64,000 bases of DNA, from positions 1 to 64,000 of the forward strand of contig CALXDH010000004.1 of assembly GCA_944387015.1 (NCBI GenBank). Reading direction: 5' to 3'. Below, piece after piece: positions 49,741 to 59,470 of this stretch. A program made the position numbers and the translations under genes. Origin of the DNA: an uncultured Oscillospiraceae bacterium. GTDB taxonomy: Bacteria > Bacillota > Clostridia > Oscillospirales > Oscillospiraceae. Within the stretch, counting starts at the first letter, position 1; every line of letters starts with the position of its first letter. Under the pieces are notes generated by a model. That model saw only the letters and a list, made by a program, of their open reading frames with translations. It did no database searches and was not told the origin of the DNA.

Positions 49741-49828
49741 AATACTGGCAGCCGGGCCGGCGTAGCGTCACCGCTTTAGCCCCCTTGCTTTGCGTCCCGG
49801 GGTTTCCCCCGGTTTGCCATTTCAGTCA
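49741..49828 (-). ncRNA. c-di-GMP-I (GEMM) riboswitch upstream of the adhesin
   Basis: On the minus strand the element reads ATGGCAAACC, a CCGGGG-GAAA-CCCCGG hairpin with a GAAA tetraloop, then GGGACGCAAAGC, then a GGGGGCTAAAGCGG receptor arm and a closing GGCTGCCAG. These are the conserved blocks of the GEMM-I aptamer (GGCAAACC, GAAA loop, GACGCAAAGC, receptor, P1 return strand). Only about 20 bases separate it from the Shine-Dalgarno, and I see no terminator between, so control is probably at translation. Two hairpins (GTGTGCC...GGCACAC and CCGTCATGC...GCATGACGG) lie just upstream. Confidence 0.88.
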
Positions 49829-56990: not shown

Positions 56991-58397
56991 TCAATACCGG
57001 CCCAGAGAGGCAGCGGTATCGGACGTTGCGGTCTTTCCGAAGTGGAAGTCGTTGCCCGGGAGAATCGCGTTGAGGGCGATCCCCGCGATGGCAGCGATGG
57101 CCAGGGAGGTGAGTGTGATGGACACCTCACCGATGTGGAACGTCAACCCGTCGGTAAAGCCCAGGCCGCACACCAGAATGACGGCAGCAATGATGAGGTT
57201 GCGGGAGTTGGTAAAGTCCACCTGGTTTTCCACCACGTTCCGCACGCCGATGGCGGAGATCATGCCGTAGAGGATGAAGCTGACACCGCCGATGATGGCA
57301 GAGGGGATGGAGCTGACGAAGGCGGCGAACAGGGGGCTGAAGGAAAGCACGATGGCATAGAGGGCTGCCAGCCGGATCACCCGGGGATCGTGGACCCGGG
57401 AGAGCACCAGCACGCCGGTGTTCTCGCCGTAGGTGGTGTTGGCAGGACCGCCGAACAGTCCCGCAAGAGAGGTGGCGATACCGTCACCGATGAGGGTCCG
57501 ATGCAGGCCGGGATCCTCGATGAAGTTCTCACCCACCGTGGCAGAGATGGCGGACATGTCACCGATATGCTCCATCATGGAGGCGATTGCGATGGGCGCC
57601 ATCACCAAAATGGCGGAGATGTCAAACTTGGCAACGCTGCCGGTGAAGTTGGTGACAAACGGCTGGAACCCCAGGATCGGGGCATCCGCCATGCCGGAAA
57701 AGTCCAGCATGGGGCCGGTGGCACCGGTAGCGGCGTCGGTGATCACCGTGGCGCCGCAGGCGTTGGCGATCACCGCCACCAGATAGGCGCCCACAACGCC
57801 CAGCAGGATGGGAATGATCTTGATCATGCCCCGGCCCCAAATGTTAGCCACCACGATGATGGCCATGGACACCAGTGCCAGCCACCAGCAGGTAGACGCG
57901 TTGGACACGGCGGAGGGGGCCAGGTTCAGTCCGATCAGGATGATGATGGGGCCAGTGACCACCGGGGGCAGGAAATGCATCACCCGGTGCACGCCCACCA
58001 CTTTGATGATGCCGGCCAGCACCACATACAAAAGGCCGGCTACCACGATGCCGCCGCAGGCATACTGGAGCTTCTCCGCGCCGTCCATACCGGCGTAGAT
58101 CCCGCTGTCCATCGCCCCCATGGCAGCAAATCCGCCCAGGAATGCAAAGGACGAGCCCAGGAATGCCGGGACCCGCAGCTTCGTGCAGAGGTGGAAAAAG
58201 AGCGTGCCGATACCTGCGAAAAACAAGGTGGTCTGGATCGACAGCGGCAATCCGTAGGTGTTGACCAGGATGGGCACCAGCACCGTGGCGCCGAACATGG
58301 CGAACATGTGCTGCAGGCCCAGGATCAGCATCTTGGGCATGCCCAGGGTCCTGGCGTCCCGGATGGGCTGCTGCCGGGAGGTCTTTGTCTCGTTCAT
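56991..58397 (-). CDS. uraA: Uracil/xanthine permease (NCS2 family)
   Basis: A 468-residue NCS2 transporter with about 14 helices. QHMFAMFGATVLVPILV at the start, PPVVTGPIIILIGLNLAP, the substrate-site stretch MEHIGDMSAISATVGENF and the following GDGIATSLAGLFGGPANTTYGENTGVL are typical of UraA-type uracil transporters. The start is ATG 58397 after GAGAGGAGAAC. The leader carries a short peptide gene and a terminator, which suggests control by pyrimidine level. Confidence 0.93.
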   Translation of the reverse strand: MNETKTSRQQPIRDARTLGMPKMLILGLQHMFAMFGATVLVPILVNTYGLPLSIQTTLFFAGIGTLFFHLCTKLRVPAFLGSSFAFLGGFAAMGAMDSGIYAGMDGAEKLQYACGGIVVAGLLYVVLAGIIKVVGVHRVMHFLPPVVTGPIIILIGLNLAPSAVSNASTCWWLALVSMAIIVVANIWGRGMIKIIPILLGVVGAYLVAVIANACGATVITDAATGATGPMLDFSGMADAPILGFQPFVTNFTGSVAKFDISAILVMAPIAIASMMEHIGDMSAISATVGENFIEDPGLHRTLIGDGIATSLAGLFGGPANTTYGENTGVLVLSRVHDPRVIRLAALYAIVLSFSPLFAAFVSSIPSAIIGGVSFILYGMISAIGVRNVVENQVDFTNSRNLIIAAVILVCGLGFTDGLTFHIGEVSITLTSLAIAAIAGIALNAILPGNDFHFGKTATSDTAASLGRY

Positions 58398-58440
58398 GTG
58401 TGTTCTCCTCTCTTTCATACGTGCAATTCCTGTCCAGGGC

Positions 58441-58467
58441 AAAAAAAATACCGGCAATAAAGCCGGT
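58441..58467 (-). terminator. Attenuator terminator in the uraA leader
   Basis: Minus-strand ACCGGC, loop TTTATT, GCCGGT, then A and eight T. The first base of the stem is the last base of the leader-peptide stop codon, and it lies between the leader peptide and uraA. The arms 58471-58478 and 58426-58433 (ATTCCTGT and ACAGGAAT) can form an outer helix around it. Confidence 0.85.
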
Positions 58468-58541
58468 CAAACAGGAATCCGAAAAAAACGAAAAAAGGGG
58501 ACCATCGCCGCTGCATCGCAAAAGCCGTTCCAACGCTGCAT
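58467..58541 (-). CDS. Leader peptide of the uraA attenuator (24 residues)
   Basis: A 24-codon frame begins with ATG 58541, seven bases after a strong GGGAGGGAGG. It ends with TGA on the edge of the terminator stem. The 3' half encodes VPFFRFFRIPV, with codons TTT TTT CGT TTT TTT that make two long U-runs in the RNA. E. coli PyrL has a comparable LPFFFPLI stretch for UTP-dependent pausing. It is too short for normal gene finding; support comes from the ribosome site, the T-tracts and the position of the stop. Confidence 0.72.
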   Translation of the reverse strand: MQRWNGFCDAAAMVPFFRFFRIPV

Positions 58542-58571
58542 ACCGAATCCTCCCTCCCGTCATTTTGATTC

Positions 58572-58600
58572 ATTATACAAAAAGCCGCTGCCTATTGCAA
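58572..58600 (-). promoter_or_regulatory. Promoter of the uraA leader and operon
   Basis: Minus-strand TTGCAA (58595-58600) and consensus TATAAT (58572-58577) have a 17-base spacer. Transcription would begin near 58565, about 24 bases before the leader-peptide ATG. The gap 58398-58671 is filled by this leader and the next terminator. Confidence 0.8.
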
Positions 58601-58646: not shown

Positions 58647-58678
58647 AAAAATGACGAAGCGGATCGCTTCGTCATTTC
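58647..58678 (-). terminator. Intrinsic terminator of the DUF523 gene
   Basis: AATGACGAAGCG pairs with CGCTTCGTCATT around AT, then TTTTTC on the minus strand. It overlaps the stop codon of the gene it ends. Confidence 0.8.
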
Positions 58679-59103
58679 AGCAATTCTGGAACGCGGGACT
58701 CACCATACACGGGGATCCCCTGGGCCGCAAGCATTTGAGCCGCGACACCGTTTCCTGTCGTCAATCCGCCGGAAAACGTACCGTCATGGATGATCCCATA
58801 ACCGCAGGAGGGGCTGCGCTCCTTGAGCACCGCCGCCTCACAGCCCAGCAGGCGGCAAAGGCGCACCGCCTCTTCCCCGCCCCGGCGATAGGCCGCCGTC
58901 ACATCCCGGCCGTCTTTGGTCATCACTCGCTCGCCCTGCCGCTCCGCAGGGGGACGGGGCGTGGAAAGACCACCCAGCTGTTCCGGACAGACCGGCACCA
59001 GGTCATGTCGCTGTGCCAGCGCCTCTGCCAGAGGATGGGTCTTGGAGGCCCCGTCATACCGGCAGCAGCATCCCAGAAGGCACGCGGAAATCAAAAGCCG
59101 CAT
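58672..59103 (-). CDS. DUF523 family protein
   Basis: A 143-residue protein with the DUF523 pattern: SACLLGCCCRYDGASK near the start, VPVCPEQLGGLSTPR, and LKERSPSCGYGIIHDGTFSG. The many conserved cysteines suggest a metal or Fe-S site. A domain of this type occurs fused to DUF1722 in YbgA-like proteins. Function is unknown. ATG 59103 has GGAGGAGG upstream. It lies four bases after the DUF3783 gene in a small operon. Confidence 0.88.
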   Translation of the reverse strand: MRLLISACLLGCCCRYDGASKTHPLAEALAQRHDLVPVCPEQLGGLSTPRPPAERQGERVMTKDGRDVTAAYRRGGEEAVRLCRLLGCEAAVLKERSPSCGYGIIHDGTFSGGLTTGNGVAAQMLAAQGIPVYGESRVPELLK

Positions 59104-59107
59104 TCCC

Positions 59108-59470
59108 TTACCTCCTCCGTTCCAGAGCAGCACGTTCCCGGTGAAGCTCCGCCAATAGAGCAGGCGGCGTCCAGCTGCGGTTGGTTTCCGTCAGCACCGC
59201 CTTGGGACACAGAATCCCTGCCTTTTGAAGGGCCGGGATCAAGGTGTCCACATGGCGGTCCAGGCCGCACAGCACCGCCATCTGCCCGCCAAGCACTACC
59301 GGCGCCGCGTCCGGGGGCGCACTGACTCCTGCCGCCAGCTGCCCCAGCGTCAGCCCGCAGGACCGGGGGCCCACCACCTGCAGCGTTGCGCCGAAGGGTT
59401 TGACGGCGGCCTCCGCCGCCAGGATCACCGGCAGCTGGTCATATCCAAACAGCAACAGCGTTCCTCCCAT
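59108..59470 (-). CDS. DUF3783 family protein
   Basis: A 120-residue protein matching DUF3783: short alpha/beta start (TLLLFGYDQLPVILAAEAAVKPFG) and the family end KAVLTETNRSWTPPALLAELHRERA. Function is unknown. The first part after the initial strand (APPVVLGGQMAVLCGLDRHVDTLIPAL) resembles a small nucleotide-like fold, but no catalytic motif is visible. It is co-transcribed with the DUF523 gene. Confidence 0.83.
   Translation of the reverse strand: MGGTLLLFGYDQLPVILAAEAAVKPFGATLQVVGPRSCGLTLGQLAAGVSAPPDAAPVVLGGQMAVLCGLDRHVDTLIPALQKAGILCPKAVLTETNRSWTPPALLAELHRERAALERRR

Follow-up and report, generated by a model that had tools for sequence, protein, structure and literature searches.

A uracil permease leader of Oscillospiraceae as a putative UTP-sensing, translation-coupled transcription attenuator

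Terminator-based control of pyrimidine genes is carried out by the protein PyrR in other Bacillota, and members of this phylum are known as PyrR users. The pyrBI operon of Escherichia coli is, besides attenuation, also under UTP control at the level of initiation. UTP-dependent pausing and attenuation are described for pyrBI and pyrE in PMC7818426, and the sensing of UTP by a leader is known from enteric bacteria (PMC7818426) and not expected in Bacillota. In E. coli, a terminator loses almost all of its activity when it follows a stop codon at a distance of a few bp (PMC4824070), and the Bacillota are classed at the phylum level as runaway-transcription species (PMC13323073, section 29). Leader-peptide attenuation as such is already known in this phylum: bmrBCD of Bacillus subtilis (PMC4191407) and ilv-leu of Staphylococcus aureus (PMC5794164) both employ a leader peptide to control termination, and his leader peptides have been predicted in bacilli (PMC2965389). 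For the two former systems, the signals described are drugs that target the ribosome and leucine, respectively, and the models contain antiterminator hairpins.

The window analyzed here is a stretch of 64,000 nt from an uncultured Oscillospiraceae bacterium, on the minus strand of which a uraA-type permease gene is preceded by a short leader frame and an intrinsic terminator (Table 1). An earlier note on this DNA had reported, ahead of uraA, a promoter and a strong ribosome site, followed by a frame of 24 codons with a U-rich 3' half and a stop codon that overlaps the terminator stem, and all of these parts were recovered in their places. The promoter agrees with the consensus at 10 of 12 positions, with two promoter-like sites found in 3 kb compared to 0.6 in shuffled sequences, and the overlap consists of one base, the A of the leader TGA being the first base of the terminator stem. 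The genome encodes three PF00860 proteins including this permease, which scores over the cut-off of TIGR00801 and whose best PDB matches by sequence are solved uracil permeases. The target gene belongs to pyrimidine supply as a uraA-type permease of predicted uracil type, its best equivalog being the uracil permease model NF007995, at a score below the cut-off of that model. Taken by itself, the leader has an ordinary fold (z -1.63; 15 of 200 shuffles fold equally well), and the evidence for a regulatory device is comparative.

Table 1. Predicted elements of the leader-uraA locus, in positions of the window
Feature	Coordinates	Strand	Remarks
Leader-uraA promoter, TTGCAA-17-TATAAT	58572..58600	(-)	Consensus match; predicted
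-35 element, TTGCAA	58600-58595	(-)	Followed by 17-nt spacer
-10 element, TATAAT	58577-58572	(-)	
Leader ribosome-binding site, GGGAGGGAGG	58549..58558	(-)	Purine-rich, kept in 17-row genus alignment
24-codon leader frame, MQRWNGFCDAAAMVPFFRFFRIPV, then stop	58467..58541 (ATG 58541, TGA 58469-58467)	(-)	Frame and stop position kept in relatives
U/C-rich tract 5' of the stem, proposed UTP-reading polymerase pause region	58468..58502	(-)	T enrichment, silent-site T bias, T runs
Intrinsic terminator (attenuator), ACCGGC-TTTATT-GCCGGT-A-T8	58441..58467	(-)	Helix conserved in 17-row genus alignment
uraA-type NCS2 nucleobase:cation symporter, regulated gene	56991..58397 (ATG 58397)	(-)	PF00860, E 4.4e-85

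The reading favored here, with a probability of roughly three in four, is that the leader acts as a translation-coupled transcription attenuator that reads the pyrimidine nucleotide supply and works like those of E. coli pyrBI and pyrE. Transcription would start near 58.57 kb, and a ribosome would load onto the strong leader site. With plentiful UTP, the polymerase would pass quickly through the U-rich tract with the ribosome behind it, so that the hairpin could fold and transcription would end before uraA. With scarce UTP, the polymerase would slow down in the tract and the ribosome would catch up. Since the stop codon extends onto the first stem base here, and is placed inside or beyond the hairpin in relatives, a ribosome at the stop would cover the 5' arm as the polymerase passes; the terminator would then fail and the uracil importer would be made. 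We infer leader translation, polymerase pausing, UTP as the signal and the direction of the response. The sequence elements expected of attenuators of the pyrBI/pyrE kind are present, namely a frame with a ribosome site, a stop at, in or past the stem, a U-rich tract and a pyrimidine target, and in kind the leader would be a pyrBI/pyrE-like attenuator.

With pyrL, the leader of E. coli pyrBI, the uraA leader shares a short frame with a ribosome site, a U-rich tract ahead of an intrinsic terminator and a pyrimidine-supply gene downstream. The E. coli leaders were measured in the same way as the uraA regions. The two differ in that PyrL of strain K-12 comprises 44 codons, with a stop that begins 44 nt past the stem start and 12 T in 30 nt, whereas the uraA leader has 24 codons and a stop on the stem; furthermore, the target of pyrBI control is ATCase, compared to a permease in a different phylum here. 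The likeness to rph-pyrE lies in a stop just before the stem, with 5 nt between them in E. coli strain 22-250, so that a terminating ribosome would cover the hairpin. There, however, a complete enzyme gene (rph, encoding RNase PH) with 7 T in 30 nt serves as the leader, whereas uraA has a dedicated short frame with 19 T. The rph stop of E. coli K-12 begins 37 nt ahead of the pyrE stem, and a reference cited by PMC10087573 links, in its title, the rph frameshift of this strain to pyrimidine starvation. Given the position of the PyrL stop, the uraA layout is closer to rph-pyrE than to pyrBI. The claim of the earlier note that the layout is the same as in pyrBI thus stands for the short leader, but not for the stop, which sits on the stem in the manner of pyrE, whereas PyrL runs through the terminator. 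The resemblance to the pyrL and rph leaders is assumed to be convergent, and the peptides vary strongly even within the genus.

The geometry of the leader was compared with chance expectation in a total of 181 uraA upstream regions. These derive from a family sample (71 of 150 genomes matched uraA, from which 30 loci and 20 more were taken), a genus sample (a uraA match in 35 of 61 genomes, with 30 regions read, 28 of them new), a named-species sample (the best 80 of at least 591 confirmed matches) and an order sample (39 of 245 genomes matched, 23 new loci). Ten regions that have an exact 80-mer in common with another region were dropped, leaving 171, and a uraA-proximal terminator-like hairpin is found in 76 of these. 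The stem is reached by a frame with a ribosome site in 70 of the 76 (300 shuffles: mean 9.9, maximum 20), and in 44 of them the first base of the stop lies at -5..0 relative to the stem start (shuffles: mean 1.7, maximum 7). Before the removal of duplicates, the corresponding counts were 74 and 44 of 80. A first set of 138 regions contained a leader in 66, with 62 distinct peptides, all chosen with a stop near the hairpin. Within this set, 42 of the 62 distinct leaders have their stop at -4..0 relative to the stem start, compared to a mean of 1.9 and a maximum of 8 in 1000 frame-interior shuffles, while the other two reading frames place a stop there in 1/62 and 3/62. Because the 62 leaders were preselected for a stop near the hairpin, the test on 76 regions is the fairer and less conditioned one. 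The stop-window criterion of the first set also misses frames that run through the hairpin, and such frames were recovered by a wider scan. As the sequences are related, the counts are not independent, and several of the earlier ones (66/138, the 62-leader set, the 181-region table and the 80-region test) still include near-duplicates, or some of them. In a 233-kb sample of the own genome, three stop-on-stem frames were found among 150 terminator-like sites, and only the one at the uraA leader is U-rich (19 T per 30 nt, compared to 8 and 10 at the others). The leader layout is neither a product of chance nor unique to one genome.

All 30 genus regions that were read carry the frame, with the stop near or inside the hairpin in 27 and with a frame running well through the terminator in three (L039, L041 and L056), as in E. 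coli pyrL. The terminator stems vary in sequence across genera (ACCGGC, GACAATCAC, GACGGCCGC, AATCAACC and others), and the stop still tracks the stem start; in 21 of 66 leaders it lies inside or past the hairpin (e.g., L020, L021, L052 and L053). That relatives of such differing geometry would still bring the ribosome to the hairpin supports a coupled device. In the closest relative, which has a 98% identical UraA, the leader has changed at 10 of its 24 codons, six of them with an altered residue, without an indel or a new stop, and the peptides vary freely in general. The alignment of related uraA leaders that the earlier note had proposed as a check therefore came out as it expected, the peptide being variable while frame, U-rich tract and distance from stop to stem are kept. 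Leaders were also scored in other families of the order (e.g., L206-L208, L214, L220, L221 and L225). Among the best 80 of at least 591 confirmed matches, those titled Oscillibacter, Pseudoflavonifractor and Lawsonibacter possess the leader, and most of those titled Lachnospiraceae or Butyrivibrio were scored without one. The loss of the frame with retention of the terminator, which the earlier note had regarded, in close relatives, as evidence against its proposal, does not occur among the 30 genus regions, but is seen in six terminator-bearing regions outside the genus (L082, L101, L118, L202, L209 and L224); the first three of these are titled Lachnospiraceae or Butyrivibrio, and the hairpins of all six look unrelated by eye. 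Taken together, the kept frame, U tract and stop distance favor a UTP-sensing coupled attenuator, with UTP as the presumed signal, and the best reading of the comparison is that this device would be present in Oscillospiraceae and some neighboring families. Two loci stand out in other ways. In L015, a 9-codon TTG frame was seen by eye inside the terminator loop with its ribosome site at the 5' arm, which amounts to a different solution with the same parts, and in L069, a leader-bearing uraA is situated on a contig titled Spirochaetales that is probably a mislabeled assembly.

The tract ahead of the stem is generally U-rich in the leader family. In the 62 leaders, the 24 nt that lead up to the stem have a T fraction of 0.51-0.57, compared to 0.12-0.28 beyond position -30, and a run of at least 4 T occurs in 52 of the 62 tracts compared to 4.8% of 2661 uraA windows. 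Individual leaders range from 4 to 22 T over the last 30 nt ahead of the stem (median 16), so some are T-poor. The bias extends to silent sites: the phenylalanine codon is TTT in 104 of 134 cases in the leaders but in 393 of 1567 in uraA, and fourfold sites carry T in 168 of 335 cases compared to 1630 of 16979. Phe (134/620) and Ser (103/620) are the most common residues in the last ten codons, but Phe is missing there from 6 of the 62 leaders and Ser from 12, and no residue that was counted is universal. The silent-site bias suggests that U in the RNA, and not phenylalanine, is under selection, and the U content of the RNA, rather than the peptide, appears to be what selection has kept. The F-rich likeness to PyrL that the earlier note had pointed out is thus real for the peptide of this leader, but is better read as a reflection of U-rich RNA, since six leaders are without Phe in their last ten codons.

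A leader that couples ribosome position to termination could also respond to the general speed of translation or of the polymerase, as set, for example, by ppGpp, by the growth rate or by drugs acting on the ribosome; the U tract would then be only a fixed pause, as for bmrB. Geometry alone does not name the signal, and bmrBCD provides a precedent within the Bacillota (PMC4191407). We nevertheless regard a general signal as rather unlikely, as the target is a uracil-type permease and it is U, not some other sequence, that is kept at silent sites. Unlike in the bmrB model, moreover, no alternative antiterminator hairpin is apparent: RNAalifold on the 17-row genus alignment returned the terminator and only one further helix, of a composition type, that can form in most genus leaders between the ribosome site and the U/C tract (alignment columns 4-11 with 67-74). 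This helix was considered as an alternative hairpin and rejected, because pairings slid by 1-3 columns are nearly as good (79-89% of cells paired, compared to 90%), and it therefore looks compositional. The lack of coincidence between the leader and an adjacent pyrR likewise speaks against a general signal. By automatic criteria, the 181 regions comprise 84 with a leader (including L078 and L111, which are probably not of the leader type), 11 with an adjacent pyrR, none with both and 86 with neither (including L006, L007, L014 and L015, in which a frame is visible, by eye in the case of L015). Adjacency was called from a C-terminal end motif directly upstream of uraA, which we take to mark the end of PyrR, and the non-coincidence is suggestive only.

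Stalling of ribosomes at Phe, or at Ser or Leu, codons under amino acid shortage is very unlikely to be the signal. The prevalence of Phe and Ser in the last ten codons would suit such an attenuator, but neither residue is universal, the codon test speaks against amino acid sensing with the most common residue, Phe, in only 56 of the 62 leaders, and the silent sites are shifted to U. In amino acid attenuators, over 20 bp separate the leader gene from the terminator (PMC4824070), whereas stop and stem overlap by one base here. The 17 genus leaders offer no competing hairpin either, and a uracil permease would be an odd target. The uraA leader also differs from bmrBCD and ilv-leu in having a U-rich tract, with no antiterminator hairpin found.

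Even less plausible is a terminator governed by a protein- or ligand-controlled RNA, through PyrR, another RNA-binding protein or a riboswitch, with the frame being incidental. The uraA leader would share terminator-based pyrimidine control with the PyrR attenuators of Bacillota, and pyrR and uraA are neighbors in relatives, pyrR lying directly upstream of uraA in the 11 regions counted above. If the frame were incidental, however, its stop would not fall on the stem in 42 of 62 leaders, the only consensus helix besides the terminator looks compositional, and in the own genome (G000) a ribosome-site frame is found instead of a PyrR gene over the cut-off or a PyrR-type RNA match. Model NF003549 scores over its cut-off in 3 of 49 genomes (G003, G004 and G007), that is, in none of the 35 leader-bearing genomes searched compared to 3 of the 14 others, and weak matches below the cut-off occur in all 49; as PyrR is rare in the sampled family, its absence from leader genomes is weak evidence. 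Rfam searches of the sequence around the leader yielded no family at the gathering score, and none that is relevant, or of PyrR type, at a permissive threshold, although the same library reports no PyrR hairpin in the PyrR-bearing loci L142-L144 either, so its sensitivity for this hairpin is unproven. A PyrR-binding hairpin, which the earlier note had named, if its binding were proven, as a finding that would speak against its proposal, was not encountered, within that sensitivity, and neither was a PyrR gene over the cut-off. A pyrR gene lies directly upstream of uraA in, for example, L143 (of G004), L185, L190 and L198, and the leader seems to be excluded where this arrangement occurs. As a last possibility, the nascent peptide could arrest the ribosome at the stop codon, as in TnaC, and so hold it on the stem, for which the stop is suitably positioned, but no common peptide motif is seen by eye and the closest pair of leaders differs at 6 of 24 residues, and this is the least probable explanation of all.

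The UTP-sensing device proposed for uraA does not extend to the pyrimidine biosynthesis genes that were read, namely pyrB and pyrC. In 30 pyrB loci, two of which are cut short by contig ends, the 400 nt ahead of the gene hold no convincing leader, and a candidate flagged there in L165 proved to be the tail of the upstream gene. In front of pyrC, a promoter and a ribosome site were found but no attenuator, in four relatives and in the own genome. In a member of the genus (G082), the pyrimidine genes form an operon in the order pyrC-pyrK-pyrD-pyrF-(extra)-pyrE-pyrB, as named by eye from the translations. Two riboswitches were noted in passing, namely a c-di-GMP-I riboswitch aptamer in the window (49744-49828, minus strand, 77 bits) and, near uraA in a same-genus genome, a lysine riboswitch (L005, 1136-1311, minus strand).

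The distance between stop codons and terminators was also examined at other long frames, taking any frame of at least 120 codons rather than curated genes. In 233 kb of the own genome, 15 of 59 stop-to-terminator gaps measure at most 10 nt and one pair overlaps, compared to 1 of 12 gaps of at most 10 nt in 200 kb of E. coli. As close gaps are common in this genome, a nearby stop alone does not prevent termination there, and these gaps, like the runaway classification of the phylum, speak against a simple reading of the device. Such gaps would work only if ribosomes normally lag behind the polymerase, which is compatible with a device that terminates by default and relies on a pause tract. The single overlap among the 59 pairs belongs to the gene upstream of the leader (58672-59133, minus strand), whose stop codon overlaps its own terminator, and the part of this gene that was searched against NCBIfam gave no match.

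In a limited literature search, no description of such an attenuator on uraA or in Clostridia was found. On balance, it is probable that a nucleotide sensor based solely on a race between polymerase and ribosome arose in Oscillospiraceae and some neighboring Clostridia independently of E. coli, and that they use it on a uracil importer in place of PyrR. If true, a phylum classed as runaway would here rely on a ribosome catching up with the polymerase within about 25 codons, the off state, in which the polymerase outruns the ribosome, being the default. If gut Clostridia hold such a large and sequence-variable leader family, kinetic coupling at the start of a gene would seem to work in Bacillota, and the natural variants of this family, with the stop before, on, inside or past the stem, would provide a ready set for determining the ribosome distance needed to silence a terminator. 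The gut clostridium studied here thus seems to switch on its uracil importer when pyrimidine building blocks run short.
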